A stretch of DNA of 64,000 nt from Hydractinia symbiolongicarpus (taxonomy: Eukaryota; Cnidaria; Hydrozoa; Anthoathecata; Hydractiniidae), in the NCBI RefSeq assembly GCF_029227915.1, contig NC_079876.1:16118001-16182000 (forward strand), given 5' to 3'. The notes below the pieces were generated by a model that ran no database searches, was not told where the DNA came from, and was given only the letters and a program-made list of their open reading frames with translations. The number at the start of each line of letters is the position of its first letter. The first letter of the stretch is position 1. Below are positions 6,322 to 57,218 of this stretch, one piece after another. Position numbers and translations under genes: made by a program.

Positions 6322-7607
6322 ACTACTTTTTATGGTTGAACTTTCAACAATGGTGCAACTTTTCGTACATTTTATCCACCTTTACATTTTTATAAACGGT
6401 TGCAAAATTCCGAATGTTTTTATAGTATGCACGTAGTGTATGTGGTGTATCAAGTATATGCTCATGTGCATGTGTTAAATTGAATATACAACGTAAAAAA
6501 TAGCTCAAAAACAAAATTTGTCAAAATAACCTAATAATAATCTATATAAAAATATTAACCAAATCATGAAATTAAAAATATATATATGTATGTACTTTAA
6601 AAATAATTTATAATAACTTTCCGTGAATAGTTTAAAAAAGCTGGAATTCTTTTTTTCTTTATCATGTATTTTAATCTGTGTAGTTGGAATATGTACTGAA
6701 GGAGTCCATGTATGCCAACAAAACATCATAACAAAATTTGTATTGTTTCTAAGACAAAAAGAAAAACATCTCACTAATAAGAAAAGAAAACTTCATTGTA
6801 TTTCTTTTTTTATATTCTTTGAAGTCATAAAATAATTTTTAAAATAGTAGTTAGTAATAAATAATTTTAAAAAGGTTTAAACAGATAACTGACAACACTA
6901 GACAATGTGAAGTAGATTTAAACGGTTTGTTTTCGTACCATAAGTTTTTAAATAGTGGTAGGTTTAAAGTCAAGTCTTCTCACAGAGAAAAAAATTATCT
7001 GGCTTTGAGAAAAAATGCTATACTTTTATTTAGTTCAATTTTTGTGGCTAAAAAGTTCGTTTTTTCTTTTACCGATTAAGCCGTAATTAGCTAAGATCAT
7101 GTTCACTCAATTTGAATAAAGATTGTTTCGAAGGGTAGTTCATATCAAATAAGTTGTCTGTTTCCACAAAACCGAATCGATGGTGTAAACAAAAGTAGCG
7201 AAACAAAATGGCCTCTTAAGGTAAACAGATATTAATAGCGTAACAAAGTAGATATCAGCCTTTTGACTGTAGACGCCGTTTAGACGCGACCTAAAGTGAT
7301 GTCACCTTGGCTCAGACTGTTTCTTAGGTCTGTGTCATGGGTATTCATTTCGGAGTGATATTCTGTTTTCGATCACTGCGTATGCCGAAAAAGTCTTCAG
7401 CCATTCACCACACCCCCCCTTATGCCCTGAATTTAAACATGTATTCACACTGCCGTTTACTGCGGTAAGAAATTAAACTTTGTCAAGTTTCACTTCCCAC
7501 TTATGTCAAAGCCGGTTTTGAAAATTATACTTAAAAACGATACATCTCCGTCTCGTTAAGATTTCTATCTGCAATGTGTAACGCTACTAAGATAAAAAAC
7601 CACTTAC

Positions 7608-10551
7608 GTCGTTGCCTACAAACTGAGGACGAACTGATCTGATCTTTTTGATTGCTTGAAAAACATCAACTAACTGTTCAAGTTTTAATTGTTCCATAAA
7701 TATTGATATGGCAATGAATGTACCAGTGCGAGATGCACCATCACTAAAACAAAGGTTATACGTTTGCAAAAATTATTCCCGCAAAAGAATGGCAAATATG
7801 GCTTAGATTAGATTAAAATGGTAAAAATAGTAATAAACTTTTCCCTGATTCATTAGCAAATATTATGTTACCATTATGATGATATTATGCAGTAGTTACA
7901 AACATAATTAATTAAAAGTACAGTAGCAACTGTTAACTTCTGGTTTGCATTTGTTAACTTTTTTCACGTGTTTTTATTTCATGTCACTACATTTAAAGTT
8001 TAAATACAGTTCCCATGGTAGCGGGCAGTACCAGAGAATATTGCCTGATGTGACGTAAGTTGCAATCAATCACATTGCGCAGTTAAAGTATATAACAATG
8101 TTAAACAGTGTACTTACGACAAAATTATCTTTAAAATGTAGTTTAGAGTTAAGGTGTTAGCTGCAAGAAATTGCAAAATGGTCACCTGTCATTTTTTTGT
8201 GAATACACCAATCGCGTCAAACACTCAAAAATAAACTTATTTAAGAATTACCTGCACATGACAACGAGCGAATTCTCTTCATATTTATATTGATGCTTCT
8301 CCACTGTACTTAAGAAGTTCACCATTGCAGCCACATCAGATGGAACCTCGTGGTTTGGCCAAAGTAAAAATTGGAAGATAATGCACTCTACCTCTTCGGA
8401 ATCCTCCTAGGAAAAACAAACAGACTTATTAGGTGTAGTAGATACTTTACCTCAAATCACTTGTTTACATTATTGCCAGCATGGGTTATTTGGCAACAGT
8501 TCTGAAATAATATATTGTTTAACAACAAATGAGTTTGAGTCATTTGCATTTTACATACGTATGAAATACGAACTAACAAAGAAGGTTCATGAACCCACAT
8601 ACACACCTGCTATGCATTGAGCAAACAAAAAATAGCTACACTACATGAAGGTAATTCAGAACACCTCGCAATAAACATCATTATCGCTAACCTTGTCATC
8701 CGTCAAAGCAAACTTGAAAGTAGCAACTTTATAATCACTCTCTTCAGACAGCATTTGCACAGTTATATTTTTGTAAGTCGCAGTTTCACCACACGCTGGC
8801 CATAACTGTGGATATCCCTGAGAAAAAGGAAATATTTAGTCAGTCATAGTGTTGCCGTTTTTGTAAAACTAAACGAACGAAACAATTTAAAGAACTTTTT
8901 GTTAATTAAACAATTACAAAACACAGTTTAATAGTTCAATAAACAGGACAATTTCTCTCTTTGCACGGCAATAATCAAATAGCTACCATCTCATTTTAGC
9001 ATTTGTTATTATTATGATAACGAAACTAGTTCAATCGCATGCACACGCGTTAAAGGATACCAAAACGTTCTAACCTCATCATCTTCGTAGAAATTGTTTA
9101 ACATGACCACTGCACTGATTTTCTTTTGATAAATCATTGCCCAGAAGTCACCAATTGTCTCAGGCAATGGATGATTTGTTGCAATAAAGGCGTCTTTCTG
9201 TTTGTAACCCTAAAAAATCGAAAAGTAAAAAAATACAGATAACATGCAGTTTTAAATGTACTTAAAAATAACTAACTTCTCAGTTGAAGTGGTGGGATTG
9301 TAAATTTATGGACCTTTTTATCGTATGACTAAAAAGGCTTAAAAATGTTTATGGCGCACCGACCAGTAGTCAAACTTTAAAATTCCAGCCCACTAGATTG
9401 GTTAAAATGCACTCCAAGCTGTGGAATTACAAAATCAATTTAAAAATGAAAAAAACGACCGGTAGCCTTGTGGTAGAACGCTCGTTGTTAGTACGGAAGC
9501 TCATTGGATTAAACCCAAGCCAGTTTTATCGTAGCTCAGATGAAAACTTAAAAGACACTAAGAATCCCTACGCAGTACCGTCGATGATAGCAGCACAAAT
9601 AGAAAGAGGTTAATACACTAATTGTTTTCTTTTTCTGTGTTTTAATCTAAATGGCGCGTTTGATACATTTTTAAGGGGCGCTCCTCACCCACTGATCCAC
9701 TACCACTTATTGACTACAGCCCTGATTACTCTAACATTCCTGATTATTCCAAAAAAAGCAACATAAAAAGCTTTTAATATCTTAAATTTAGAATTTTTTT
9801 CATTACACTTTGATGGGTGTGTTGGATAAAATAATGATTAACGAATCAAGTTCAAATTAATAAGAAATGATCTGTCTGATTACATTGGGACATTTCAGAA
9901 ACTATTTCTTGATCACCGATCATTTATTAAAATCCTGATTTTTTTTCTGTTACTAATGAGTAAAAAAATTAGCATGTAAAAAAAGAATATACTTACATCT
10001 ACATAAACTGCATTTATATATTCGGCACCTTCCTCGTAATAAGATGTGTGTGTCAACATTACCCTGTAATCGTCACCTGTGTGGAAATGATAAAAAAAAC
10101 GGTAATATCTGTTTTACACGTTACTAAGCAGAATAAGGTAACTCCGCATGATGACAACAATACACAAAAGCTGGACTTCGCCGCTCCAGTATTAATTTTG
10201 ATAACAAAAAAAGTACCACAATTCACAGTTTTCCGTCCTGTGCTCTTTCAAAATAAAAATTCAAAGTTGCAATAAACAGTTATATTTTTATTAGCCATGC
10301 TTTTTCAAATAAACCACGACACAAAATACAAAGACGGATTCCCAAATACAAAAACCTAACAAGGATGCTAGTTTCCAAACTGTCATGCAAAAATTAATTC
10401 CACATATTAAAAAGGGCTTATAAGCCAAATAGGATAGCAAATTCATCTTACGTGGTAAGATAAACGAATGTCTGTTTTTCGCCCTGTTTACGTCGCGTTT
10501 TCCAGACATTGAATCTTCATCAGCTAGAGGAGCTGTCAATATCTCAAGTCT
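7608..10551 (-). CDS. RPTP exons 44-49: second phosphatase domain D2, catalytically altered, 3' end not found
   Basis: Exons 10452..10551, 9997..10076, 9075..9209, 8692..8817, 8252..8406 and 7608..7743. The fold is clear from ILPRDDYRVML, EYINAVYVDGYKQKDAFIAT, DFWAMIY, and the P-loop region. Key positions differ from an active enzyme: no KNRY motif, WPN in place of WPD, and a P-loop reading VMCSDGASRTG with methionine in place of the histidine. Cysteine and arginine are kept. D2 domains of this family are usually regulatory, and these changes fit that role. The chain stops at VRPQFVGND on a phase-0 donor. The last exon, which should carry a QYxFxY motif and the stop, was not seen in 1-7607. 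Confidence 0.92.
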
Positions 10552-13500
10552 CTACAATTAACAAATATATGGAAAAATACAAGTATAATAAAAGTAACGA
10601 ATAGCGGAAGCCTGAAAGTTACACAAAATACTACAGAAGTGGGATAACATAAAATGCATACCTGGTACTGCAGCTGAAAACCTGATTTATCTGTGTTCTC
10701 TTGATTAGGACGTAGCAGGTTTCTGTATTTAATTTTAATATCCGAAGCATTTATCTCAGTAATACCAGATATGAACGCTTCATATAGCGCATGATAAATA
10801 AACATGTACTGGTCCTAAACGTATCAACAATTTATTTGTGCTGATTTTCTCTAAATAACTTAATTCATTCTTTAGTAAATGAATAAGTTACTGATTTTGT
10901 TTTCACAACTTTCATAACACACAAAAAACATTATTTTTAAGTCTAAGGTTAAACTAAAACGAGCAAACAAAAAATAGAGTTGCAATTTCGGGTCACTAGT
11001 GACATAAAATATTATATCGTTTGCCCCCTCCCCCCCCCCCCCAAAAATCATCAAAAGTCAAAATATAACTCACTTCAGTCTGCACCATATGAATCCTTCT
11101 TGTGCGCAGAAAGTTGACAAAGTTGAACACGTCAACCTTGTTAGTCTGTTTAGAAAGATGTAACATGGAATCAATGCATATAAATGTACCAGTTCTGCCA
11201 ACACCAGCACTAAAAAGAAAATGAGTGCATAATCAATTTGAAATAATTAAATATGTTATCGTTTTTTTTCATGTACAGGAAACCCATTTTACCAAGTCAA
11301 TATGTTAGTTTTGGGCCTGATGGAAGTATTCCACGACCCATAAATAAAACATAGAAGATTGGCAACCTATGTCGAATATTCAATTCACCTGCAATGCACC
11401 AGAATAGGTTTGGTCATTTGCTCAATAGGGTACTCTTTCCGAATTTTATGTCGCAAATTGATTATATTGGATGGGAATTCAGGAACACCATGATCAGGCC
11501 AACTCATGTAATGATACTGTTGCACATCGCGTATTTCTTTGGAACCAGCCTATAGCAAAAATGTTAGATTAAAAAAATTAAAATGATGTCAGATAAATAA
11601 TTTCGGAAATTAACATGTTTGAGACCTATTTTTTCTCAATTACACAAGAGAAAGTGTAATCTAGGAAAAAACATTATCTCAAAAGATTTTTGCAGCGTGC
11701 TAGGGCAAGACAATTTTTGCAATGAAATCTAGATAATATTTAAGATCTGGACATTATAGAGACACGTAGTCTTAATAGATAAACCCTTGGTGCTCATTTG
11801 TTTTTTAAAAAGAAGTTTAGCTTTGTAATGTTGTTTATAAATTTCTTCAAAATGGAAAAAAAAAACAAACAATTCGCAAGGTCTGTTTCTAAGGTTGGTT
11901 AGTAATGAGTTACAAATGGTCTTATTTACTTGAAGGGATGTTCAAATGAGTTTCTTTTATACAAAATATCAACAAAATAATCGTAGAAAACTACATAATC
12001 GGCATAAATAACGCTGTCAAAACGCACTGTTAGTGTTTTTTTTAAAATATGCATTTTACGTTATTTATTTATAATTCCACTTGTACAATAACTTCAATTG
12101 CCAAGTCTATTCCAACGTCGGAATTTATTGTCATCTGATAAACTGCTCAGAATAACATCAAAACGAGTTAATTTCTCTTTAGACATTAAACTATTTTACC
12201 TTCATTCCCTCAAATTTTTACTAAGTAATAATTTCCCGAAAATTTTAATTGATAAATAATAATTTCCCGAAGAAAATGTTGTCTTACAATTAACCGATTT
12301 GTTCCCTTCAATAAATAAGATATTAAAAACTTACCTTTTTTAACGAGAAAGATCTTACTACAACATCCGTGAAGGAATCAGTAAAAGTAAGCGTCACTTG
12401 CATATCACCATATTGCTGTGTCCCAGATGTTGGCCAATACTGCTCACATTTTCTCTAAATATTAATTAACAACTAAAATTAAGAAACAATTTTATACCCA
12501 GGAGAACGACATTACATGTAAAATTTATCTATTGAAGGATAAAACTAAACTGCATAGAAAATTGAAGAATCTAACACTTGCTCTATATTTAACATTTTCC
12601 TAAGGACTGAAAATGTTAGTAATTGCCGTCTCCAGGAGTTATTTGCATTTTATAAAAGGCGTCATTTTAAAACCTGAAATAATCATATTAGTGTTTTAAC
12701 CTTGGTAACGTGATACCTTGATATTTAAAAAATGATTAGATAAATAAGACGAAGTTAAAATGTATCATTTTGTTTACACAGAGTTTTCTCAAGAAGTCTA
12801 TTCTTCAAAAGCGTTTTAATTTTATCACCGGATATAGAAGCACAGAAAGCAAAGTTTCGATGTATAACCACACAATTAAAATTAAAGATTAACCAATCTT
12901 TTTTTAATCTGATTTTACAGATAAAAAGAACTCACCAAAAATTTATCAACCTAAATATTCATTTCAATACCTTTGATCTTTCCACCAAATTTGTAGCCAT
13001 AACAATAACAGGTACGTCTTGTTCCCACACCATTTGCCAGAAATCAACGATCGAGGCTTTATTAGGTCCTGTTATGTAAATATGACGTAGTGTTTACTTT
13101 GTGCATGTTTTGTTATTGTCAAAGAAAATGTTTCTTGGGTCGAATACAATAAATCTTAAGGTAAGACTTCAATTTGGCAAATCAAGATCAATTCATGCAA
13201 AAGTAGGAGTCAATCCTACTTTTTGTCAATAGACGTTGACTGATTCGATCGATTTAATCTTTTTTTTTCAAAGTGAAAACGTGGTTTTGGAGATCGGGTT
13301 TTACAGTCATTGGGAATTGGTCAATATTTAGTGACATTAGAAAGTATAAAATATATCAATCCAAACAAATCAACGTCATATTTTAAATAGCAAACTAAAA
13401 GATCAGCATTGACAACTTCTTTGATAACTTATGGCTACACGATTCGTTTTTTTCTTAAACGTCTTCTAGGCAAAAAAAATCATACCTTGAGAAGCTATAT

Positions 13501-49500: not shown

Positions 49501-52500
49501 TCAAAAATTTTAACAGCAAACTTATGTACTAGTTATCACCCTTTGTCTTGTACAATATGGTTTCAAGCTTTCAGGAGAGTAAAATACCTGCAAAGGTTGA
49601 ATAATGTGAAAAATATAATCTGAACGTTTTAAGTTGAATATATATGTTTAAAACAAAACATTTTGTTAAAACGCAAGGCATTTCAAGGAGCGCATACAAC
49701 AATAATTTAACCTGTCTTGTGACAACTTAAAACTAAAAGCTCAAAACTGATAAGAACTTAGCTAATTCTATTCATTTTCCTTGATTAACCCCTTAACTTT
49801 GATATGTTGTGAAGTAAAAAACAATTGATAATCTTTCGATAAGTGTTTTAGCCTTTTGTTTTCACCTGTTTCACCATTTTAATCTGTCCTCTTAGCCAAT
49901 TACATTCGAAATATTTTCAGGAAGTTTTTAAGAATAACAGTTGCATTTTTTCATTATTTTACAACTGTTACCATTACAAAAAATATTATACCTTGTTAGA
50001 TGCTCCGCTTTTGACAATACTTAAAGACTTCAAATTACTACCAAATCGCACTTGAAAATTATGCACAGGTTTTGTTGCATTAGTTTGAACAAGTATACCG
50101 GTAAATGTAACCTCCATGCCAAAATCATATCTTAAGAACTCTCCAGCTGATGAACACCAAGAATTAGAAGAATATAAGTTTGGTGACAACACTGTAGTGG
50201 TATCATTCATTTTTGGATTAAAGTCTGGATTCATCGAAGAAGAACATGCTAAATAAAGACCGCAAATGTAGAAAACAAAAATAAGCCAATATAATAGAAT
50301 TGCAATGTAAAAAATACTTATAAAGTACTTGTCATCTAACAAAATAGAGTATGGAAAAATCAGCTAGAATTGTCTGTTAGCCATGATTTATATATAGACT
50401 CTATAGGTCTAAAAAAATTTCCAAAATTCAGTCTAAAACAAACACCTGGTTTGCCTATGTATTTATTCGAGTAAATCATTATACAGATAGGGATTCTGTA
50501 CTCAAGCCGCATTTATAGCTGTGTGCAAAATAAATCTCTAGGTTTTGTGAAACCTGGCACCATAAAAGAATGCAAATCAAAGGCATTATAACACAGAAGG
50601 TTAATAAAATAAACTACTTACTCTCTGAACATCCATATAATTCAACTTTTATACACACGGCTGTGCTAGACTCCTTGTAAATGCGGACATGACGGGCTGT
50701 GAATGCATTTTGATAAAACCAATGCCGTTTTGTGTATTTGTTGCCAGGATATGCAAAGTTCTATAAATATACAGTCTACATTTTTCCTGGATAATGGTTG
50801 CAATAATAAAGAAAATAACCAATTATATAAATACAGAAAAAAACTGACTCAGCTATTTTCCCTGGAATGATCACAACTTTCTCTAATAAACAATGCGAGT
50901 TATTCTGGACCCCATGAAAAATAACAAACGCAGACACAGATATATTGAGGTGTGTTAAAAGGGGTTAATGTATCTTTACAATAATATTGTTTATAATCTA
51001 CAACTCTTTTGTTTTACCTACCCAAACCCACTACCATCTAACCAAACTAACATTTTTATTGTCATATTTTAGTGATTTCTTTGCACAAGGGAAAACCTTT
51101 TTTTGACAATTTTTAAAAAAAGGATTTTATTTTATTTTATTACAAGTATAAATAATTTTTTATTTGCTTAAATCCAACTATCTCCAAAAATATAAGTCTC
51201 ACTTTTTATTATATTATTTGCGAAAGGTGAACTTAGCATGTGTGTATTGCTACACGTCTATCCTCAAAAGTATAGTAAAATTTTACAATATACAAAGCCT
51301 TAAATTTTTCCTAGTTTTAAGCTGCCTGAAACTGTTTATGTGCTGACTGACTAACCCTGCAAACTTGTTCATCCGTTCCAATTCGATTTGGTCTAAAACA
51401 AATTTTTACATGATCAAAACATGTGTATCTTAATTTTAAAGATTCGAATTTGTGCAATATTTTGTTATAATTTTTACAAAACCGGTTAATCAATATATTT
51501 TTGACGAACCCCAAAATCTCGAATTTAACAAACAAGTTAAAAACAAGTTAAAAAATCAGCAAAAGCTTTTCAATATATTATCATTATCAGTGCTACACAC
51601 AACTGTAAAATTGTTTGTAGAGAATTTATTTAGATTGAATATTTTGCACTGTACTTAAAAAACACATGCCAAATTTATCTGGGCCTGATAAAACATTTAG
51701 TCCTCAACCTAGTACACGTCTTATCTACCTGACTTGTTTTAAAATAAAAATTGCTTTTATTGTTTTCTGCACATTTTTTATTGTGAAAATTTATATGCTG
51801 TCAACAACATTAAAAAATGGCTTATTTTAGAAACACGGAACTATAATAATAGTGAAACTTCATCAAACAAAATTACAGTTATAGCCTCTTTTACTTTAAG
51901 GAAAAGGATGGTTTTTCATCCCGCTGACACCTAAATAGCCGCAGGGACTAATTCCCTTGGAATTTGTTTTTAAAATTGTGATAATATAAATTTATATTTA
52001 TATATATATTTGATAAAGGTAACAATGAGAAATTTACCTGAAGTACTAATAGTATAAACTGTTTACGACTACAGTGGAAACTTATATATAAATCATAAAA
52101 TTGCAAAAGTTTATTTAAAAAAAAAATTAATTTTAGATATTGGGAAAGTAGTTCTTGTCATAGTAATTAATGTATGGATTTAGGAAAATTTTCCCTTTAA
52201 AAATACAACTGTAGATACATGTGGTCATAAAAATTCGATAAGATCATAACAGTTGATGCTAGCATACTTGCAAGATATATGGATTAATTTTGAGATAACA
52301 AGACAGCAAGCTGTGATGATGGAACTGGTCTAACGATCCTTGAAGTTAAAATTGTAGAGGTTACACCCTCTAAAGATCAAAACGCAATGCAAGATCTCCC
52401 TTTTTGCAAGGATAATCTGTAGATTCAAGGTAATTGAACCAAACAACCCTCTCTACACAATACAATACGTACAACTAACGGTCAGAACTCAAAACCTGAC

Positions 52501-55500
52501 AACATGAAAACAGAAGACAGACATAACGACAACAATACAACAAAGAATTTACTATAAAAATAAATAAACAAATACAAAACTATACATATGAGTAGACAAC
52601 CACCCGAGCGCCAGGACTTGTGAACCTGGCAGTAGCTTTCCACATGTGTTACGGGATTCCAACACTCAGCCTTACACGGGTAGTTGTCACTTTGGACCAG
52701 CCATTTGCTTCGGACCAGCCATAAGTCAGGACCAGCCTGAGGACAGTGGAGTAATGAACGTGGATGTAAAGTCACGGAAACAAGAAAGATAGACATGAAA
52801 ACCCCTTATATAGCTTCTTCGTAACATCAGGTATAGCAGGATCGTTAACCCTGTAGACTAAGTGAGCCAACTTAGCCTCCCATGTTAATTTATGAGATAT
52901 AGGACAAACCAAATTTTTTTTCATTACAATTTAGAAAAAAAGCGAAGAAGACATTACAAAACAAGCAGTTTCCTTTATTATTTTAGAATCCAAATATCAA
53001 AGAAACATTCCCCTTGATTTTTAAACACCTAATGAAAGAGGCAGAGAATCAAAGGTAAATTGTGAATATGAGAATAATGATATCCATCAAATACCACGGA
53101 AAGGTAACAGATACATTTAAAAAAGTTATGAAGAAGATGTCTAAATAAATATATATATAAATTAATAAATAAAACAAATAAATAAAAACAGCACTGTCGT
53201 CACTAAAACTCAGAGGAAAAGTTTGTGGACAACAAAATTTGTTGTCCACAATATAACCTGCCTGACATAGATCAACTAAGACAACATTTGCCTGATTTAA
53301 TGATCACACTCGACTTTTGAGCCTGGTTGGTTTACATTTTAATGGCTACAACTGTACTTTGTTAATTGATGCAGTTAAAATTCTAATACATGCTAGCTTA
53401 CTTCCTAATGAGGATACAGAATAGCTAAGCAGCATGTTTAAGAACAACATTAAACAACGTCTAAGTTTTCCTCTTTCGAGATCACCAAAGTACCAAATTT
53501 TACATCTATATAATAATACGCCAGTTCCGTGTGTCTGTAATAGGCAAAGTGGATTTGTTCATTTTCCTTTGATCTTACCGAAATTTTCTTTGAAGTAACC
53601 GAAAAATGCATGTCTATTATGTTAAATTTTCTCAGGTTATGGCGCGACGTCAATAACACTACTTTAACGTCAATATCCTATATTAAATTAATGAAGCTGT
53701 TACAGTGCACTTAACACTTTGAGGCCAAATAACTTGGAAACGAGGTGGTGACGTCAATGATTTTTTACCGCATGGGTCACTAGGGACCACCTAAGACCAA
53801 TTTGGGTAAGTTTCCCAAACCTGGGTCTCCGAATCCGTTTCGGAATGGATGGGTTGATGACGTCATCAAAAAACCTTTAAACAACAATATTTCCGTAACC
53901 GTTTGTCAAAAGTACATGATCCTATACATTTTCTTGATCAACGTCTCAAAATCTATACGAGGAAGGCAACAGGTATATAAATTTTTAAAAACAATTTTGT
54001 GTTTTCACGAGCCTTTGCTGACGTCAGCACAATTTTTATACTCTTATATCTCCTTTGGTGTTCCTCAAAAAAATATCTTCCTATACATTATTTTAATCAG
54101 CGTTTCAACCTCTACAACCTATTTTTCCATTGTCCATCTGCCTAAGTGGATTTCTCCACGGGCCTTATCGACTAGTAAGATTATAACATGTAGAGCGCAC
54201 ACAATAATTAGTTCACTGTTCACAAATGACATCACAAAACTAATCTTTTTTTATTTTCTGTAACGTATACCAAGATTTGGTTGTAATATACATCTGAATT
54301 AATTGTTGACATAAAAGAAAGTATGTTATATTGTGCAAGTACCCAAATGAAAATGGTATTTAAAAATTAACTTACCCTTATGAAACTTCCCTGATTTTCC
54401 TCCCACAACTCAACTAAAACACTTGGATCTTTTATATCATACTTTATATTCATACTTATCACTCCTGAAACGGTCTTTCACAATACAGGGGGTAAGATTT
54501 TTAAGCATATAATATAAGTATAAACCTAGTCCACGTTTTATCTATTTTGGTGAGTTCGGCACGCTACGGGTAAATACGCCACACGCTATATATTATTTTA
54601 GCCTTAGGTTAGTGCCTATCATCCACCATCCATATAAACAATGGAAACGAGAGATCACATGCTCTTTTTGTAAACAAGAATGAGATGTTGTTCAGTTGGT
54701 TTTAGGTAAGAAAACAAATAACTATTTACTTATTTTATAGAAATTAGTTACAAATATGAATTTTTTGTCACAATGGTAGTTGATTTTTAATCGAAGAGTA
54801 TCTTTAATTAGCAAGAAGAGTAGTTTCCTGTGCATTTCAACTTCCAGAGATAAATTCCATGGGCAGTAAAAAGTGATTCAAAATAAGAGCACATATGAGC
54901 TCAATCACATAAGGAATTTTTTTTCAGAATGGTAGGCTAACTTAATTAAGTAATTTTAAGGGTACACAACATTTTAACCCACATATACAAAATGCTATGC
55001 TAGAAATATAAGTAACACACATATAAAAGTATAAAAAGATTAGATTTACCCTCTTAACATTACGGTAATTCACAATCTCTTCTTGCCAAAGATCAACTAA
55101 ATCACTTGGACTCTTTACACCATACTTTATATTCACATTTGGCACACCTGGTGTATCACCTTGTATTGCAAGACCAGTAATTGTCATTATTCCTCCCAAA
55201 TCAATCTGGATGAAAGCATTTTCACTGCACCACTCGGAAGCACTGTTCAATCGAGCAAAAGAAACATTTACGTTATTTGAAGTAGAAATAGATGTTTTCA
55301 ATCTGTCATCGGGTATTACATTGCTTTCCATTCCAAGTGGTTGCATGCATGGACCTTAACATAGTTGAAGAAATAAAAAAAAGAAATTTTGCATTTAAAA
55401 AACTGCAGTAATTTAAAAAATACAAACCTCCTTTTGATGTTGTTGCTATAACTGACTCACTCCATGTCTCTCCTGAAGCAGTGAAAATTTTCACCTAAAT

Positions 55501-57218
55501 ATAAATTTCATTGGCATTCTGATTTTGAAACAACTTAGTGCAATATTTTTATTTTAATTAATAAAATGTTGTTTTGTCATGTTTTAAAATTAACTTTGAT
55601 AGGTAGCAAAGGTATACAGAAATTAAATCCTGATAATGTCACCAATGGCCTAAAAAAACAGAAATTTCTTTTTTCCGTAATTTAATACCTGGGTTTGATG
55701 TTAATAACCTTAACAAGCGCAAATTTTCTCACTAACTGTTAATGTTGTACAAGTTAACTAAATTTGCCTGATTGTTGTGTAAACCACAACTATTTTTAAA
55801 AAATATTTCTTCTTAAAAAACAGATTGTGTTAAAAAGATTTTTGGCTTTCCTAAATTTTCTGATTTCCAGGTTTTTCTGTGTTTTTTTTAAAAAAATCTA
55901 GGTAGACCAAAATTTGTTAAAGTGTTGTCAGTCACACCAAAGAAAAATTAGGATTACTGTTGTATGTCTGCCTGTGAGCTTTTTGAAAGGTGAGAGGGGG
56001 GGGGATAAATTAAAAGCGCTAATGGAATCACACCCATAAATAGAGTAGTGACCTCTGTCAAATGCACGGATTTGGATATTGAATATAGTACATATTCAAT
56101 ATCCAAATCCGTGCATTTGTATTACTCAAAACAAGGGAAATGCCATAGATAAATTAAAAGCACAGAATCACATTTTGGATAGTCTCTTTTATCTGGGCAA
56201 TTTGTGTATCTACATTTTCAGAGAATATGAACGTTTTTAACCACTGATAAATCTTAAACAAACCAATATTAACTTTCAAGTCAATAAACTTCTTTGTATG
56301 CATATTTTGTATTTTTGATATTCAAAATAGGTACAAAAACACTAAATGAAGGCAATAAGACCACTACTGCTATGTTGAATTATTTAACTAATAAAGAATT
56401 AACAAACTCTCATAAAAATACATTTATCTTGTACCGCTATATCTGCCATGTGACGCAAAGTCTTGACTAGAATGGTATTTTTTTATTTTTTCAACCTAAA
56501 TCAATAATTAAATTTTCTTATAAGACATGCTAATACGAATGAAAACAAATTACCTTGCATTCATAACTTGTATAAGACGTTAATTCATTAACTGTTGCAG
56601 ATGTGTTTATCTTTGGTATATCATATGTAACAACCATTTCTCTACAATTAAGTCGACAACACTGAATTTTATATTTTGTTATATATTTCTTTTCGTTTGG
56701 GATCCATGAAAAAGTAATTGAAGTTGTTTTCTGAAGAGCAGCTGAAAATGTCTTGAGGGCTAAAAATAAGGCATATTTATTATAAGAATATAGGAAAAAT
56801 ATGAAAGAAGCACATTAGTAGGAACCTGATCATAAGTTATTCTTGGTAGCTAAGCATATCTAGGATGTCAAACCTGGGAATGACCATGTAAGATTAACAG
56901 TTGTTTTTACAGGAACAAGAGTATTTTGATACATATACTGATATGCACATGCATATTCTTTGGTACACTTAAACATTCCATTTTCGTTAACATTGCAATT
57001 GCCAAACTTCATTAAAAAATTGTTAATATCCTTCTTAAACGTAAGCAATGATTTATATAATGTAGTTGCATTTTGGTTTCTTTTGTCAGCAATTGTATAA
57101 TTTCCATCATTTGTGATGATTTTGTTATTCACACTCCATTGTATATTTGGATGTGTACCATATGCTGCACATTGTAAGCTGTTGTTTACTCTCGTCATCA
57201 CAACGTTAGGAAGTTTAT
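7608..57218 (-). CDS. Discoidin/Ig/FN3 receptor-type protein tyrosine phosphatase (49 exons, both ends incomplete)
   Basis: A multi-exon gene for a type I membrane receptor that should remove phosphate from phosphotyrosine on cytoplasmic targets when its ectodomain binds a ligand. The 49 exons listed in the following entries all have AG acceptors and GT donors, and the reading frame is kept through every junction (2 bases plus 2,603 codons). Domain order is Ig, FN3, three F5/8C, then Ig, FN3, three F5/8C again, then Ig, three FN3, membrane-proximal region, transmembrane helix, PTP D1, PTP D2. D1 keeps KNRY, WPD and the HCSAGVGRTG loop, which makes the family call firm. The first exon starts inside the gene (phase 1) with no signal peptide, and the last one stops before the end of D2, so both termini are missing. 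No transmembrane exon lies between modules A and B, which favours one gene over two tandem genes. A transcript across the 29.3-39.1 kb intron would settle this. Confidence 0.85.
9457..9612 (+). repeat. tRNA-derived SINE, degenerate
   Basis: Starting at GACCGGTAGCCTTGTGGTAG the sequence resembles a tRNA 5' half: the TAGCCTTGTGG stretch corresponds to a polymerase III A box and GGATTAAACCC, about 45 bases on, to a B box. No clean cloverleaf can be drawn, so it is a SINE head followed by an unrelated body rather than a tRNA gene. It sits in the intron between the D2 exons at 9075..9209 and 9997..10076, antisense to the phosphatase gene. Confidence 0.5.
10662..14054 (-). CDS. RPTP exons 36-43: catalytic phosphatase domain D1
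   Basis: Exons 13967..14054, 13742..13815, 13486..13522 (37 bases), 12971..13068, 12335..12454, 11389..11549, 11074..11209 and 10662..10814. The motifs of an active class I cysteine phosphatase appear in order: the phosphotyrosine loop KPKNRYANIVAYD, YINASHI, ASQGP, DFWQMVW, CEQYWP, the WPDHGVP loop with its general-acid aspartate, the P-loop HCSAGVGRTG with the nucleophilic cysteine and arginine, and the Q-loop MVQTEDQY. It hydrolyses phosphotyrosine on cytoplasmic proteins. The P-loop is split by an intron after the first two bases of the serine codon, and D2 is split at the same place. Confidence 0.95.
11030..11042. repeat. Cytosine homopolymer in a D1 intron
   Basis: Thirteen consecutive C residues, preceded by CCCCCT, in the intron just upstream of exon 43. 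A slippage-prone low-complexity tract with no evident function. Confidence 0.8.
14514..15505 (-). CDS. RPTP exons 34-35: cytoplasmic juxtamembrane segment
   Basis: Exons 15372..15505 (134 bases) and 14514..14653 (140 bases). The chain begins IRRHNNVRGKREHQD, a basic segment just inside the membrane, then an acidic serine-rich stretch (ILSDSERSTGM, EVNLSADMDEK) and the lead-in VDFPIYWERLKKD. The final part matches the helical lead-in that precedes D1 in receptor phosphatases. The serine-rich stretch could be phosphorylated, which is an inference only. Confidence 0.85.
15832..15952 (-). CDS. RPTP exon 33: transmembrane helix
   Basis: A 121-base exon. A glycine- and serine-rich linker (KSPKGSPTGGDSSN) leads into about 24 hydrophobic residues beginning TTTIAVVSVVVV and ending ALFII, followed by the basic stop-transfer residues R-I-R-R across the next junction. 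This fixes the topology: all domains at higher coordinates are outside, the phosphatase domains inside. It is the only membrane span found in the gene. Confidence 0.92.
16182..18788 (-). CDS. RPTP exons 27-32: membrane-proximal extracellular region
   Basis: Six exons: 18695..18788, 18085..18283, 17637..17679, 17261..17354, 16436..16712 and 16182..16230. The opening PYSPSVSLFK and PYTGPISSYE look like a diverged FN3 start. Later GPSNVKYYQIIV and the RAYYEGERFYSTPW stretch resemble the membrane-proximal part of classical receptor phosphatases, which is often cut by furin-like proteases. The tiny 43-base exon at 17637..17679 was placed because the flanking phases (0 and 1) require it and it gives an open frame with good borders. 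The join between the fourth and fifth exons uses the GTATGT donor at 17255-17260. Confidence 0.8.
19123..19470 (-). pseudogene. HIRAN-like domain fragment inside the Tigger element
   Basis: A minus-strand open frame reading FIGTRVSFTRDL, then EPDNHVDKFAVAII, GRFAKNVFYFLRS and GEGLQIPC. The EPDN..DKFAV start and the VMGH motif recall HIRAN-type domains found in DNA-repair helicases and in stand-alone invertebrate proteins. It lies where the transposase N-terminus would be expected but on the opposite strand. An open frame of about 115 codons remains, and a methionine occurs at 19410. Whether it was captured by the element or is part of an older host gene is unknown. The domain assignment is from memory of the motif pattern. 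Confidence 0.4.
19494..20491 (+). pseudogene. Tigger-type transposase (DDE_1) pseudogene
   Basis: Broken reading frames on the plus strand keep recognisable transposase parts: CVGGKHSKLRLT, KIGLVVDNCPAHPS with the second catalytic aspartate, then LIFLPPNAKLQPMGQGV, which in active enzymes reads QPMDQGV and supplies the third acidic residue. Here that aspartate is glycine, so the copy is dead besides having several stops. The last 89 codons (20222..20491) are an open frame for the C-terminal tail. The N-terminal CENP-B-type DNA-binding part is absent. The family performs cut-and-paste transposition at TA sites. Confidence 0.75.
21036..21430 (-). CDS. RPTP exons 25-26: fibronectin type III domain
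   Basis: Exons 21324..21430 (107 bases) and 21036..21225 (190 bases). The sequence has EPTEPRNISV, IYLNWKEPYQINGII, then LYPGTNYTIRIHATTGGGAGP, the typical E-F tyrosine corner and G-strand of an FN3 domain in receptor phosphatases. It is followed by a 2.2 kb intron that contains a Tigger-type element. Confidence 0.88.
21701..22120 (-). CDS. RPTP exons 23-24: fibronectin type III domain
   Basis: Exons 21900..22120 (221 bases) and 21701..21776 (76 bases). Landmarks are VPSIPRNVTL, ILVSWLQPEPVGGVI, YEIKYKEKY, LSNFQEYEVQ and the closing VRAYTKENFFIGPWSD strand. These are canonical FN3 features (WLxP, the tyrosine corner and the GPWS loop), close to the FN3 repeats of LAR-type phosphatases. Extracellular. 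Confidence 0.88.
22223..22486 (-). CDS. RPTP exon 22: fibronectin type III domain
   Basis: One 264-base exon in phase 1 to phase 1 encodes a complete FN3 domain: SPPNVNVI at the start, ATITISFGQ in the B-strand, DKLEPYTDYVITVSSYN in the E-F region and VSFKTAEG at the end. Unlike the other FN3 domains of this gene it is not interrupted by an intron. It is the first of the three FN3 repeats between the last Ig domain and the membrane-proximal region. Confidence 0.85.
22942..23310 (-). CDS. RPTP exon 21: third Ig-like domain
   Basis: A 369-base exon, phase 1 to phase 1. It starts HPKVEVLKSVA, then SIKCFVEAQPG (B-strand cysteine) and QEWNFP (C-strand tryptophan). Later come ISCDYSN and CYINYTCAAYYPG, which supply the F-strand cysteine and an extra pair. 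Sequons are very dense (NGSSN, NGTY, NMTD, NISC, NTTC, NYTC), as expected of a surface protein. It is not a close paralogue of the module A and B Ig exons. Confidence 0.82.
24018..25472 (-). CDS. RPTP exons 18-20: third F5/8C (discoidin) domain of module B
   Basis: Exons 25320..25472 (153 bases), 24319..24488 (170) and 24018..24162 (145). The translation has CMHKLGIEGN, SGLNNMIGDW, PWIQVCFDSQK, AVAIQGQGYYNDGRV, and then the best discoidin C-terminus in the gene: CVRLHPTSWNEHGC followed by MRWELLGC. Phases match exons 8-10. The final codon is split in phase with the third Ig exon. Confidence 0.88.
25546..26624 (-). CDS. RPTP exons 16-17: second F5/8C-like domain of module B
   Basis: Exons 26404..26624 (221 bases) and 25546..25678 (133 bases). 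The first gives CSSPVFPVQL, IRYHFGKRVTLTGLRL and DFHIRYGQ. The second gives LMFWFKEEIICKVIDI and ends IQFIGC. It matches exons 6 and 7 of module A in length, phases and the WF...IC..IDI pattern. The N-terminal third is shortened, so it is a diverged F5/8C domain. Confidence 0.8.
26698..27220 (-). CDS. RPTP exons 14-15: first F5/8C (discoidin) domain of module B
   Basis: Exons 26919..27220 (302 bases) and 26698..26836 (139 bases), separated by a very short 82-base intron. Landmarks are PCMQALGFENG, ARLNSDKFWC, LKIDLGRVMTVTGMALQG and the C-terminal ACLKVELYGC. It is the counterpart of exons 4 and 5 and a textbook discoidin sequence, probably able to bind an extracellular or surface ligand. Residue identity to the module A copy is moderate, so the two may differ in specificity. 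Confidence 0.88.
27588..28775 (-). CDS. RPTP exons 12-13: fibronectin type III domain of module B
   Basis: Exons 28564..28775 (212 bases) and 27588..27663 (76 bases). The translation shows SISFSWIPI, a CCRQNC cluster, the F-strand TTYKCK and the closing strand NWSTEISVK. The length and internal phase-0 split match exons 2 and 3 of module A. The domain leads directly into the first discoidin domain of module B. Extracellular spacer or ligand contact. Confidence 0.84.
28932..29276 (-). CDS. RPTP exon 11: Ig-like domain of module B
   Basis: A 345-base exon, phase 1 to phase 1. It opens with KLPNVVIRRV and keeps the Ig core LQCAAFG, NIQWS and FVCAYHY. It is a close paralogue of exon 1. Across about 130 bases (29119-29248 against 57060-57190) the two differ at only about two positions, far less than the neighbouring exons. 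Upstream lies a 9.9 kb intron full of transposon relics. Extracellular. Confidence 0.86.
30500..31236. repeat. Possible MITE with GGTCCGGGG ends and a long G/C hairpin
   Basis: The left end CTATGGTCCGGGG at 30500 and the right end CCCCGGACCGAATAGG at 31219-31236 form an inverted pair. Just inside the left end is a run of 19 G (30508-30526), nine bases, and 18 C (30536-30553). These can form a very stable stem, and the G run could form a quadruplex. The interior (30840-30945) repeats short CGGATTTT motifs in both orientations. No coding sequence. Confidence 0.5.
33525..34560 (+). pseudogene. PIF1/Helitron-type DNA helicase relic
   Basis: Several frames on the plus strand together show the family motifs in order: NEEQLAIADSI, the Walker A segment FLVGPGGTGKTFTYN, then VATCAWTGIAATLVQNG and RTVTHFSSYQS, VVERTGRAQF, HFNIKIGCVVML, LCNGTRLIVRNHHTN and a FPLTLSYALT C-terminal motif. 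These correspond to helicase motifs I to VI of PIF1-like enzymes carried by Helitron rolling-circle transposons. Stops and shifts break it at many points. I did not find the Rep nuclease half or clear element ends, so it could also be a host PIF1 pseudogene. Confidence 0.65.
35466..35711 (+). other. Unclassified 81-codon open frame, coding-like composition
   Basis: The frame has cysteine and aromatic residues (FHICEQIIKCYPCY) and an acidic segment (EAEDYPKIWP) and ends just past a CAG/GTAAAA site that could be a splice donor. I do not recognise it. It lies about 400 bases upstream of the Penelope-type relic on the same strand and may be a worn part of that element or chance. Confidence 0.2.
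36093..36345 (+). pseudogene. Penelope-like element GIY-YIG endonuclease relic
   Basis: Plus-strand text reads KDEICLESQCNIVYKIQC, then KDCDAFYDGET, and after a frame change LKQHAQEHKKAVHNANTDKN and EMVDHSWKNDHIID. This is the layout of the GIY-YIG nuclease at the C-terminus of Penelope-like retroelements: VYKI for the first motif, FYxGET for the second, then the EHKKAV helix. The isoleucine of the second motif is an aspartate and there are internal stops. The reverse transcriptase part was not found, so only a 3' stub remains. Confidence 0.6.
36755..38880 (-). mobile_element. 5'-truncated RLE-type LINE inserted into an older repeat
   Basis: The element runs on the minus strand from about 38880 down to about 36755. 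It has the 3' end of an open reading frame (see the entry at 37505) and a 3' untranslated part. A portion of that (37055-37165) recurs at 52590-52710, suggesting a second 3' fragment of the same family. The flanks (36440-36750 and 38880-39060) match one uninterrupted copy of another repeat at 49100-49620, which marks the insertion borders. The reverse transcriptase domain is missing through 5' truncation, typical of LINE insertion. Confidence 0.6.
37505..38878 (-). pseudogene. LINE ORF C-terminus: RLE endonuclease region fused to a ubiquitin-specific protease domain, frameshifted
   Basis: The first part (38878 to about 38560) reads RPDIVIFSNKLKRVIIIEL, then CPCEENTNYW, GWQVDFFVVEVGARAYCAR and LKRLGF, the pattern of the restriction-like endonuclease end of early-branching LINEs. 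The same frame continues, without a stop, through a proline- and lysine-rich linker into a USP catalytic core: GFVNKGNTCYANVILQAL (Cys box) and NSQQDVAEMLL. Near 38030 a one-base shift occurs. The other frame goes on with YRCNTC (zinc-ribbon half) and the His box YALVAVINHSGTLNSGHYW, then WYLCND and a stop at 37505. Catalytic Cys and His are both present. USPs cleave ubiquitin from proteins. Found inside a retroelement this is unusual. Confidence 0.7.
39144..40042 (-). CDS. RPTP exons 8-10: third F5/8C (discoidin) domain of module A
   Basis: Exons 39908..40042 (135 bases), 39434..39606 (173) and 39144..39318 (175). The translation begins CMNKLGLERR, has ARLNSLRYAW, IWLQVCFNETK and GVALQGLGYAWNDRI, and ends RLEIMGC. 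These are clear F5/8C landmarks. The C-terminal exon is rich in cysteine (HEMNC, EDQGC). The last codon is split after one base, in phase with the Ig exon at 28932..29276, which supports joining module A to module B. The frame also runs on to an in-frame stop if the donor is not used, so an alternative short form ending here cannot be excluded. Confidence 0.8.
40220..50248 (-). CDS. RPTP exons 6-7: second F5/8C-like domain of module A
   Basis: Exons 49992..50248 (257 bases) and 40220..40355 (136 bases), separated by a 9.6 kb intron. The first exon gives CSSSMNPDF at its start, then LRYDFGMEVTFTGI and NFQVRFGS. The second gives THWFDIPLICSIIDI and ends CIKIGFTGC. The fold is a diverged discoidin domain with the usual cysteines at both ends but a weak N-terminal signature. 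The same exon pair in module B is 221 and 133 bases. A large TIR transposon (40.93-48.18 kb) occupies most of the intron, so correct splicing has to skip it. Confidence 0.78.
41775..43457 (-). pseudogene. Transposon minus-strand gene, frameshifted, conserved TE-borne family
   Basis: Read from 43457 downwards, several joined frames give a continuous protein. It starts with a basic N-terminal part (ETRIRARIHKE), then a helix-turn-helix-like stretch (MTWDKENLLKEI, VGNWSELARKYGV). Further on are CDYRRGLIELAATLENK, a block FYGKYFHNLMIHALMQYRII followed by EDDERIFNMLKSITGN, the tryptophan-rich ICYGEGIWWREDDYG, and an acidic serine/threonine-rich tail (open 41772..42125). The YGKYFHNL...QYRI block is one I associate with transposon proteins common in cnidarians, but I cannot name the family. 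At least three frame changes make it non-functional. Confidence 0.5.
43611..43746. repeat. Minisatellite, six copies of a 23-24 base unit
   Basis: The unit contains TTGTATATATTGCCAAAAAC and is repeated at about 43611, 43635, 43658, 43681, 43705 and 43728, with spacing alternating between 23 and 24 bases and the last copy diverging. It lies between the two divergent transposon genes, so it may belong to their shared promoter or to transposase binding sites. Confidence 0.9.
43747..43800. repeat. Perfect 21-base inverted repeat next to the minisatellite
   Basis: Arms 43747-43767 (AAGATTTGCTTATAAATGTTT) and 43780-43800 are exact reverse complements around a 12-base spacer. It abuts the minisatellite and lies 194 bases ahead of the plus-strand gene start. 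Candidate protein-binding or cruciform site. Confidence 0.9.
43974..43994 (+). promoter_or_regulatory. TATA-like element ahead of the transposon plus-strand gene
   Basis: GGTATATAATG directly precedes the first methionine codon at 43994. The TATATAA string is placed very close to the start codon, so it may be chance in an AT-rich sequence. Confidence 0.2.
43994..46931 (+). pseudogene. Transposon plus-strand gene, DUF6589-like putative transposase, frameshifted
   Basis: The gene starts MSESHEKNLQ at 43994. After the DICQDEWG stretch a run of six G at 44123-44128 shifts the frame into the open frame 44075..44785, with HPPKVCNKHKAV, a CENCEVC cluster and a basic GRKRKR segment. Then follow 44824..45324 (GEQYDTISNWL, VGKTWHVAVENKVKLL), a stop, 45584..46321 (KKRQWLIVECDGLPF, a C-x2-C/H-x4-H-like segment, WVLLKPVGGHIEMN) and further pieces to 46931 with YITPEERRELNDV. 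The order and the KFSDMFW / PVYEKYFS pieces match transposon proteins with a DUF6589 region as far as I recall. At least five frameshifts or stops. Confidence 0.55.
44611..44633 (+). repeat. Telomere-type TTAGGG repeat inside the transposon gene
   Basis: Three tandem TTAGGG units plus a partial fourth, read as LGLGLGLV in the open frame without breaking it. TTAGGG is the usual metazoan telomere repeat. Confidence 0.85.
47247..47828 (-). CDS. Transposon accessory protein, 193 codons, apparently intact
   Basis: A complete open frame from MELHAYTGLP at 47828 to a stop at 47247. The N-terminal half has regular secondary-structure-like text (VVTIVRNKLGKIIMTGSPDF, LLLDGNPLVEVGQQF), the C-terminal half is strongly basic (KKPKKKVALD, TKTKRTYVRQAKK, LPKKKLRKMI). 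This looks like a small DNA- or RNA-binding protein. It lies between the plus-strand gene and the right terminal repeat, facing that gene. I do not recognise the family. No frameshift is visible, in contrast to its neighbours. An uninterrupted plus-strand frame overlaps it and is taken as its shadow. Confidence 0.5.
   Translation of the reverse strand: MELHAYTGLPVVTIVRNKLGKIIMTGSPDFKKLLLDGNPLVEVGQQFVHKWVDENLSLPKELPEVKSVSSPVVDKLPEQLRHSIPGAAQAVKNLVADFVVEQGSSNVSTLWPVKKRLPQPAKKPKKKVALDCSSSTKTKRTYVRQAKKVDEKRPPCIPFLPKKKLRKMIAASHRVKKMVGTCTQRTLDRVLYL
49100..49620. repeat. Dispersed repeat, copy 2 (uninterrupted)
   Basis: Matches the two separated segments of copy 1 at 36440-36750 and 38880-39060. 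It lies in the intron before exon 6. No coding content. Confidence 0.55.
50622..55354 (-). CDS. RPTP exons 4-5: first F5/8C (discoidin) domain of module A
   Basis: Exons 55050..55354 (305 bases) and 50622..50760 (139 bases). The translation starts PCMQPLGMES, continues with ARLNSASEWC and the IQIDLGGIMTITGLAIQG core, and ends VCIKVELYGC. This is the full N-to-C signature of an F5/8 type C domain, including the first and last cysteines that normally pair. Such domains bind collagen, glycans or phospholipids on the outer face of cells. The joining intron is 4.3 kb and holds LINE and other repeat pieces plus a partial duplicate of exon 4. The equivalent exons in module B are 302 and 139 bases. 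Confidence 0.85.
52480..52800 (-). mobile_element. LINE 3' fragment, second copy
   Basis: The segment 52590-52710 matches 37055-37165 in the 3' part of the LINE at 36.8-38.9 kb: both contain a GCGCCAG start, CTTGTGA.CTGGC, GTAGCTTTCCACAT and CTCAGCCTTACAC. No open frame of the LINE is present, so it is a short, 5'-truncated insertion. Confidence 0.5.
53450..53640. repeat. Partial copy of the 57.4-59.6 kb inverted-repeat family
   Basis: Shares ATAATAATACG, a GTGTGTCTGT stretch, TTCATTTTCCTTTGAT-like and TTCTTTGAAGT.ACCGAAAAA with the right arm at 59210-59310. Non-coding. Confidence 0.55.
53690..54263 (+). repeat. Repeat with TGACGTCA motifs and a chance 153-codon frame
   Basis: The block carries several TGACGTCA/GACGTCAT strings and a GGGTCACTAGGGACCACC palindromic segment. 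The open frame at 53802..54263 lacks any recognisable motif and is rich in residues expected from AT-rich spacer, so I treat it as non-coding repeat. Similar GACGTCA-bearing text occurs at 31060-31135. Confidence 0.4.
54376..54464 (-). pseudogene. Partial duplicate of phosphatase exon 4
   Basis: The 89-base stretch translates to MNIKYDIKDPSVLVELWEE and resembles the end of exon 4 (VNIKYGVKSPSDLVDLWQEE). It has a TTTCAG acceptor and a GTAAGT donor and ends in the same phase 0, but the N-terminal two thirds of the exon are absent. It could be a relic of an exon duplication or a rare alternative exon. Confidence 0.6.
55428..56759 (-). CDS. RPTP exons 2-3: fibronectin type III domain of module A
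   Basis: Exons 56554..56759 (206 bases) and 55428..55494 (67 bases) together encode one FN3 domain. The B-strand reads ITFSWIP, the F-strand TSYECK, and the last strand carries ETWSESV. It carries an unusual cysteine cluster (CCRLNC) in the C-C' region, which the module B copy also has (CCRQNC). The pair starts and ends in phase 1 with an internal phase 0 junction, the same split as exons 12 and 13. The domain is an extracellular spacer or binding module. Confidence 0.83.
56059..56119. repeat. Perfect 28-base inverted repeat in an intron
   Basis: Arms 56059-56086 and 56092-56119 are exact reverse complements around a 5-base loop (AGTAC). The core reads CACGGATTTGGATATTGAAT. It lies between phosphatase exons 2 and 3 and would form a strong hairpin in the pre-mRNA. 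Confidence 0.95.
56874..57218 (-). CDS. RPTP exon 1: Ig-like domain of module A
   Basis: A single 345-base exon, phase 1 at both ends, flanked by a TTTCAG acceptor and a GTTTGA donor. The translation has an Ig-type core: a B-strand cysteine in LQCAAYG, a C-strand tryptophan in NIQWS and an F-strand cysteine in YACAYQY, plus two further cysteines and several N-glycosylation sequons. The matching exon at 28932..29276 has exactly the same length and shares 33 consecutive identical residues. It lies outside the membrane, where such domains bind ligands or form receptor contacts. This is the most N-terminal exon I could find. Confidence 0.85.

Follow-up and report, generated by a model that had tools for sequence, protein, structure and literature searches.

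Does a single gene of the hydrozoan Hydractinia symbiolongicarpus place discoidin (F5/8C) domains on a receptor protein tyrosine phosphatase (RPTP)? The question is raised by a 64,000-nt stretch of contig C2 (C2:16118001-16182000, hereafter the window; the assembly holds 480.9 Mb in 76 contigs), for which a preliminary description had joined discoidin, immunoglobulin (Ig)-like and fibronectin type III (FN3) domains, one membrane helix and two protein tyrosine phosphatase (PTP) domains in one open frame. Our analysis bears this out: the parts lie on the minus strand at the positions described, and they match the RefSeq protein of LOC130629666. Taking architecture, family and role as a phosphatase receptor jointly, we consider it very probable from the sequence that LOC130629666 belongs to a medusozoan family, for which we propose the name discoidin-RPTP. 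RPTPs are classified mainly by ectodomain, and a discoidin class, which forms one clade in our sample and is expanded in Hydractinia, would add to the existing classes.

Clear discoidin, FN3 and PTP exons were visible in the stop-to-stop translation of the minus strand of the window, in which splice sites were then placed by hand. The resulting model comprises 46 exons, runs from window position 57218 to 6671 (minus strand) and encodes 2477 aa in a single frame, with consistent splice sites and phases and one stop, the terminal one. A search of 5.8 billion proteins matched it to the Hydractinia symbiolongicarpus RefSeq protein LOC130629666 isoform X1 (P0001, 3181 aa), with 100% identity over the query region; by NCBI convention, we take the label 'isoform X1' to denote a predicted model. 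From P0001 residue 553 on, the two coincide over 1687 and 789 residues, and the single mismatching residue of the hand model stands for 153 residues in P0001, which derive from four further exons and an earlier start of the 16720 exon. The hand model keeps the frame without the exons at 18.8-17.2 kb, but was dropped in that form because RefSeq contains these exons.

The limits of the gene are wider than first described. Its start lies outside the window, in a signal-peptide exon at C2:16187454-16187398 (~69.4 kb in window-relative terms), and its last exon occupies window positions 6748-6671. The originally proposed span of 7608 to 57218 does contain the parts placed there, but coding extends ~0.9 kb beyond 7608, to 6671, and the count of six discoidin domains holds for the window, whereas the whole gene has nine. 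The parts are as follows, units 1 and 2 being the two window copies of an Ig-FN3-Disc-Disc-Disc module, and Disc1 to Disc3 the successive discoidin domains of a block.

C2:16187454-16182279, minus strand, outside the window: N-terminal block (signal peptide, FN3, three discoidin domains)
56874..57218, minus strand: unit 1 Ig-like exon, with splice sites in phase 1-1; I-set E 0.084, under the cut-off; present in P0001
55428..56759, minus strand: unit 1 FN3, two exons; fn3 E 1.2e-8
50622..55354, minus strand: unit 1 discoidin 1, two exons; F5_F8_type_C E 8.2e-8
40220..50248, minus strand: unit 1 discoidin 2, two exons; F5_F8_type_C E 5.8e-5, under the cut-off; Disc2-group profile matches discoidins
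39144..40042, minus strand: unit 1 discoidin 3, three exons; F5_F8_type_C E 6.1e-10
28932..29276, minus strand: unit 2 Ig-like exon, 75% identical to the unit 1 Ig; I-set E 0.003, under the cut-off
27588..28775, minus strand: unit 2 FN3, two exons; fn3 E 5.2e-9
26698..27220, minus strand: unit 2 discoidin 1, two exons; F5_F8_type_C E 2e-10
25546..26624, minus strand: unit 2 discoidin 2, two exons; singly without a Pfam match; exon structure as in unit 1 Disc2, at 34% identity; Disc2-group profile matches discoidins
24018..25472, minus strand: unit 2 discoidin 3, three exons; F5_F8_type_C E 1.8e-17; neuropilin-1 b1b2 chain at 3.8e-18 in the PDB
22942..23310, minus strand: third Ig-like exon, called from position and cysteine pattern only, without a Pfam match
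21036..22486, minus strand: three FN3 domains, five exons; fn3 E 1.6e-34 in three stretches
~18786-18697, 18285-18085, 17679-17638 and 17352-17260 (approximate), minus strand: four ectodomain exons taken from RefSeq, with P0001 peptides located in the window
16182..16720, minus strand: membrane-proximal ectodomain, two exons, in the hand model and P0001
15832..15952, minus strand: transmembrane helix exon (Kyte-Doolittle 3.52 over 21 residues), the one strongly hydrophobic stretch apart from the signal peptide
10662..14653, minus strand: first PTP domain (D1), nine exons; Y_phosphatase E 1.6e-149 for both PTP domains; nearest to PTPRS/LAR D1
6671..10551, minus strand: second PTP domain (D2), seven exons, with the stop codon at 6671; P-loop VMCSDGASRTG, and WPN replacing WPD

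The domain families expected from the preliminary description were recovered from the joined protein, with weak Ig calls: a Pfam scan of whole P0001 returned F5_F8_type_C (3.4e-65, five stretches at 0.001), fn3 (2.5e-58, five stretches) and two Y_phosphatase domains (1.1e-147). The N-terminus reads signal peptide, FN3 and three discoidin domains. When the discoidin domains were tested singly, five of the nine exceeded the Pfam cut-off, namely Disc3 of the first block (Disc1 at 1.9e-5 and Disc2 at 0.0055 staying below) and Disc1 and Disc3 of both window units, so that four of the six in the window pass on their own. A profile built from eight Disc2 sequences matched four Rhopilema discoidins at 98.9% (E 3.6e-17; FN3 controls, 0.1%) and Disc1 at 97.7%, with only 5% against Disc3; because of the former two matches, the Disc2 group is, by profile comparison, discoidin. 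On the cytoplasmic side, the single membrane helix is followed by PTP domains with catalytic motifs, which qualifies the protein as a receptor PTP at the level of sequence: D1 keeps the KNRY, WPD and HCSAGVGRTG motifs, and in D2 the P-loop histidine and the aspartate of WPD are missing.

LOC130629666, which unites F5/8C, FN3, a transmembrane helix and two PTP domains in one protein, has relatives. Among the matches listed, PF00754 and PF00102 occur together in Clytia (P0008), Rhopilema (P0009, P0124 and P0123, which terminates inside D1), Hydra (P0010, P0011, P0013), a JGI protein (P0012) and an EukProt protein (P0125), as well as in P0001. In RefSeq, the Clytia, Rhopilema and Hydra relatives are called 'receptor-type tyrosine-protein phosphatase S-like' or 'delta', names that hide the discoidin part; with their discoidin, FN3 and two PTP domains, they belong to one family with P0001. 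Among the best 120 of 6875 matches in one search, and among all 19 in another, which also missed Hydra and Hydractinia, none with both domains was named as anthozoan. Mercenaria P0006 combines a match to PF22633 (discoidin-like) with sushi and PTP domains, and groups with PTPRQ in the D1 tree, on long branches. That tree holds 28 of the 33 extracted rows (L044, both L045 rows, P0010 and P0007 were dropped) and was built without R2B, R4 and R5 references. In it, seven discoidin-RPTPs and ten copies from contig C8 form one clade (97/95); without the C8 copies, the seven are unsupported as a group (58/0). All seven discoidin-RPTPs checked, P0001 included, share a D2 P-loop of the form xC[SR]DGA[SG]R, with the histidine replaced. 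The literature searched, which covered few subscription journals, holds no description of discoidin receptor phosphatases. The view that such a phosphatase is unusual therefore stands insofar as a tandem-PTP receptor with discoidin domains exists in a cnidarian and its family is undescribed in that literature, but the architecture is not unique to LOC130629666.

Several points weigh against this assignment. The discoidin-RPTPs are predicted proteins; four of the nine discoidin domains of LOC130629666 fall singly below the Pfam cut-off, and its Ig domains are weakly supported (unit 2 has an I-set E of 0.003, under the cut-off, and the third has no match). The Clytia discoidin match barely exceeds the cut-off (28.6 versus 28.2 bits), and does so in the whole protein only. 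A structure model of unit 2 built from four sequences reached a mean predicted local distance difference test (pLDDT) score of 48.5, and because of this score was set aside. Finally, the D1 P-loop of Rhopilema P0124 reads HCSAGIGQTG, the catalytic arginine being gone, so that phosphatase activity has probably been lost in at least one member of the family.

How far the family extends within Hydractinia was approached through genome-wide Pfam scans, in which all 83 discoidin matches were used, together with 75 rows of the 165 PTP matches (further exons of the same loci were omitted by eye). The 75 rows cluster into 51 PTP loci, and 18 of these are preceded by a discoidin match on the same strand at no more than 22 kb, a limit of our own choice; 15 lie on C8 and three on C2, one of the latter being a second copy of the present locus at 15.5 Mb. 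Among the remaining 33 loci, one has its discoidin match on the opposite, downstream side. The 15 C8 loci form an array of candidate discoidin-PTP genes at C8:21.7-27.96 Mb. One of them (L033/L034), followed by eye, has discoidin exons, FN3, a membrane helix, D1 and D2 on one strand within ~12 kb; its D1 is intronless, with HCSAGVGRTG and WPD, and its D2 motif VTCSDGANRSG fits, by eye, the family pattern xC[SR]DGA[SGN]R with the histidine replaced. The other 14 are discoidin-PTP candidates. One of the ten C8 rows in the D1 clade, L035 (C8:25115875), lacks an upstream discoidin match, and the PTP at C8:22595615, in the array, carries two stops in D1. As for the second copy, at C2:15.49-15.59 Mb, it is 94.7-99.6% identical, introns included, to LOC130629666 and its neighbour LOC130629668 in the main collinear blocks (four 10 kb stretches), and it represents either a recent segmental duplication or two haplotypes in one scaffold; since these cannot be told apart, it was excluded as separate evidence. 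Several other PTP loci likewise occur in pairs on a single chromosome, the two members scoring equally.

That neighbour is the real surprise of the locus, since it is predicted to join a near-identical ectodomain to a non-enzymatic tail. It surely occupies the first of the two positions below, the second being taken by an exon set that separates it from LOC130629666.

C2:16261901-16217612, same strand as LOC130629666 and upstream of it: LOC130629668 (P0002, 2628 aa)
C2:16217028-16187969, same strand: gene-like exon set between the two genes, with discoidin and Ig exons

Over unit 2 of LOC130629666, LOC130629668 is 96% identical (synonymous divergence, dS, 0.059; ratio of nonsynonymous to synonymous divergence, dN/dS, 0.37), and against unit 1 its dS is 0.30; dN/dS is 0.34-0.42 in three ectodomain blocks of the two genes. 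Their two FN3_2 exons are identical over 294 nt, and the membrane-proximal exon shows 76% nucleotide identity. Within the ectodomain's 3′ half, exon and intron blocks are alike 91-97% identical, and because of this the likeness of the two predicted genes is explained by recent duplication or conversion; identical FN3 exons adjoining one of 83% identity (aa) suggest gene conversion. The cytoplasmic ends are of different kinds. LOC130629668 has no PTP domain; instead, I-set Ig and EGF-like domains lead to a membrane helix and a tail of 83 residues, the part between Ig and EGF being SEA-like by eye, without a Pfam match. The consensus spacing of the immunoreceptor tyrosine-based activation motif (ITAM) is YxxL-x8-YxxL, and the tail holds YTGLVPTEEEVAYSQL, which fits it; such a spacing arises in 0.8% of 100,000 shuffles of the tail. 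Its VAYSQL also fits the corresponding inhibitory motif (ITIM), a match common by chance (32% of shuffles); both assignments are at motif level only. The intervening exon set stops 0.5 kb short of where LOC130629666 begins its first exon, and contains three repeats with a 6.6 kb period and equal match scores; its tail is 87% identical to that of LOC130629668 over 82 residues, but its ITAM-like stretch is interrupted by an in-frame stop.

What might these proteins do? From the outside inwards, the LOC130629666 product is predicted to present, after its signal peptide and FN3, three blocks of three discoidins, the second and third each preceded by an Ig-like domain and FN3, and then a further Ig-like domain, FN3 repeats, the membrane helix, a D1 in which the catalytic motifs are present and a degenerate D2. 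The discoidin/Ig arms would most likely bind a ligand, either on an adjacent cell or in the matrix, which would then change where, or whether, D1 can dephosphorylate nearby tyrosine motifs. By general knowledge of PTPs, D1 would act on the tyrosines of nearby proteins and D2 would be regulatory; a candidate partner is LOC130629668, with nearly the same ectodomain and a short tail bearing an ITAM-spaced tyrosine pair. The sequences themselves show the architecture, the family, the D1 motifs and degenerate D2, purifying selection and the exchange of cytoplasmic ends between the two genes; the phosphatase activity of D1, the binding of ligand and the functional pairing are what we infer here.

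The cluster may thus possibly encode paired receptors with opposing outputs. Paired immune receptors of the PIR, LILR and SIRP types have a common ectodomain and opposite tails; the Hydractinia genes resemble them in being clustered, with near-identical ectodomain stretches and different cytoplasmic ends, and differ in that one member carries the phosphatase itself. In its full form, the proposal is of a paired-receptor system in hydroids, in which one discoidin/Ig ectodomain would be kept alike by conversion and linked to opposing outputs (phosphatase versus ITAM-like tail), a ligand on an adjacent cell would engage both, recognition would be set by the balance between phosphatase and motif, and the C8 array of 15 candidate loci would be an expanded recognition repertoire. 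We advance it tentatively and regard it as unlikely in its entirety. The discoidin class would also make it possible, in a cnidarian, to set phosphatase receptors against tyrosine-motif receptors that have nearly the same ectodomain. The idea has a biological setting, in that Hydractinia is a model of allorecognition, whose allorecognition complex is formed by 41 Alr genes (PMC11999971), and in that the recognition tissue of Botryllus is reported to express CD45-like receptor phosphatases along with genes of the ITAM/ITIM pathway (PMC12065747).

The alternative that survives best, plausible though still somewhat doubtful in our judgement, is that a LAR-like RPTP gained discoidins while keeping a role in adhesion or in neurites, and that the neighbour is alike merely through recent tandem duplication without functional pairing. 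LAR-type (R2A) RPTPs are defined by a block of three Ig domains at the N-terminus, with FN3 repeats after it. Like PTPRF, PTPRD and PTPRS, LOC130629666 would be a type I membrane protein with FN3 repeats and tandem PTP domains, and its D1 is nearest to theirs by sequence (in the PDB, PTPRS at 273 bits, with PTPRK and PTPRM at 262 each); the near-identical exon and intron blocks described above also fit such a duplication. It differs from them in having nine discoidin domains and no N-terminal three-Ig block in P0001, and its D1 falls outside the LAR clade (85/67) of the 28-row tree, as do the D1 domains of the other discoidin-RPTPs sampled there. Its D2 is nearest to PTPRE/PTPRA in the PDB, with LAR next, and has the P-loop xCSDGAxR, not the HCSAGVGRTG of LAR D2 (four rows checked). 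An adhesion role without pairing would, moreover, leave aside the altogether different cytoplasmic end of LOC130629668.

Improbable, by comparison of the discoidins themselves, is the original suggestion that the protein is the enzymatic opposite of a discoidin domain receptor (DDR), that is, a collagen-sensing phosphatase. DDRs combine a ligand-binding discoidin ectodomain with a tyrosine-signalling cytoplasmic part, and in these respects DDR1 and DDR2 resemble LOC130629666, which differs in having a phosphatase for a kinase (the Pfam scan of P0001 contains no kinase family), nine discoidins accompanied by Ig and FN3 domains, and discoidin sequences not specially DDR-like. Although DDR2 (28.4-28.8 bits) is among the PDB matches of the one Disc1 compared, lactadherin (32.8) and neuropilin-1 b1 (31-32) score slightly higher; for the one Disc3 compared, neuropilin-1 leads (b1b2 chain, 3.8e-18; single b1, 41.7 bits), and no DDR appears among the best 60 of 444 matches. 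The notion of a specifically kinase-type ligand module, or of collagen sensing, thus finds no support in these comparisons, by which the discoidins of LOC130629666 are generic rather than DDR-like. Neuropilins, whose b1/b2 discoidins are among the nearest by sequence, differ in turn: the scan of P0001 has no CUB or MAM family, and PTP domains are present.

Finally, a merger of two genes by exon phase, in which the discoidin units would form an adhesion gene of their own and the PTP gene would begin further downstream, is most improbable. In its favour, frame alone does not prove linkage, because the ectodomain borders are phase 1-1 and would join in any prediction; genes that share this ectodomain but end in other tails are clustered around the locus; and the RefSeq entry is itself a prediction. 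Against it, Clytia, Hydra and Rhopilema also have predicted proteins that combine discoidin with PTP domains, and the RefSeq model is continuous from the units to the membrane exon, with no other tail in between.

The history of the discoidin-RPTP ectodomain can be followed in its module repeat. Units 1 and 2 differ by a dS of 1.3 with a dN/dS of 0.37 (dS 0.51 for the Ig alone), and because of these values both look old and under purifying selection. Hydra P0011 has the order FN3-Disc x3-Ig-FN3 (by alignment and by eye), and LOC130629666 contains the [Ig-FN3-Disc x3] module two times more; in view of the Hydra order, module duplication probably enlarged the Hydractinia gene.

Some introns of the gene hold open reading frames (ORFs) of their own. 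The exons of unit 1 Disc2 are split by a 9.6 kb intron with mobile-element-like ORFs; among those on the plus strand at window 44042-46321, two have no meaningful relative in the PDB, and the first has a borderline match to the RAG1 importin-binding family (23.8 bits versus a cut-off of 23.3). The intron between units 1 and 2 contains, at window 38876-37508 (minus strand), two overlapping ORFs with ubiquitin C-terminal hydrolase matches (UCH, 1.2e-22 and 1.1e-8), which adjoin a stretch that is retroelement-like by eye.

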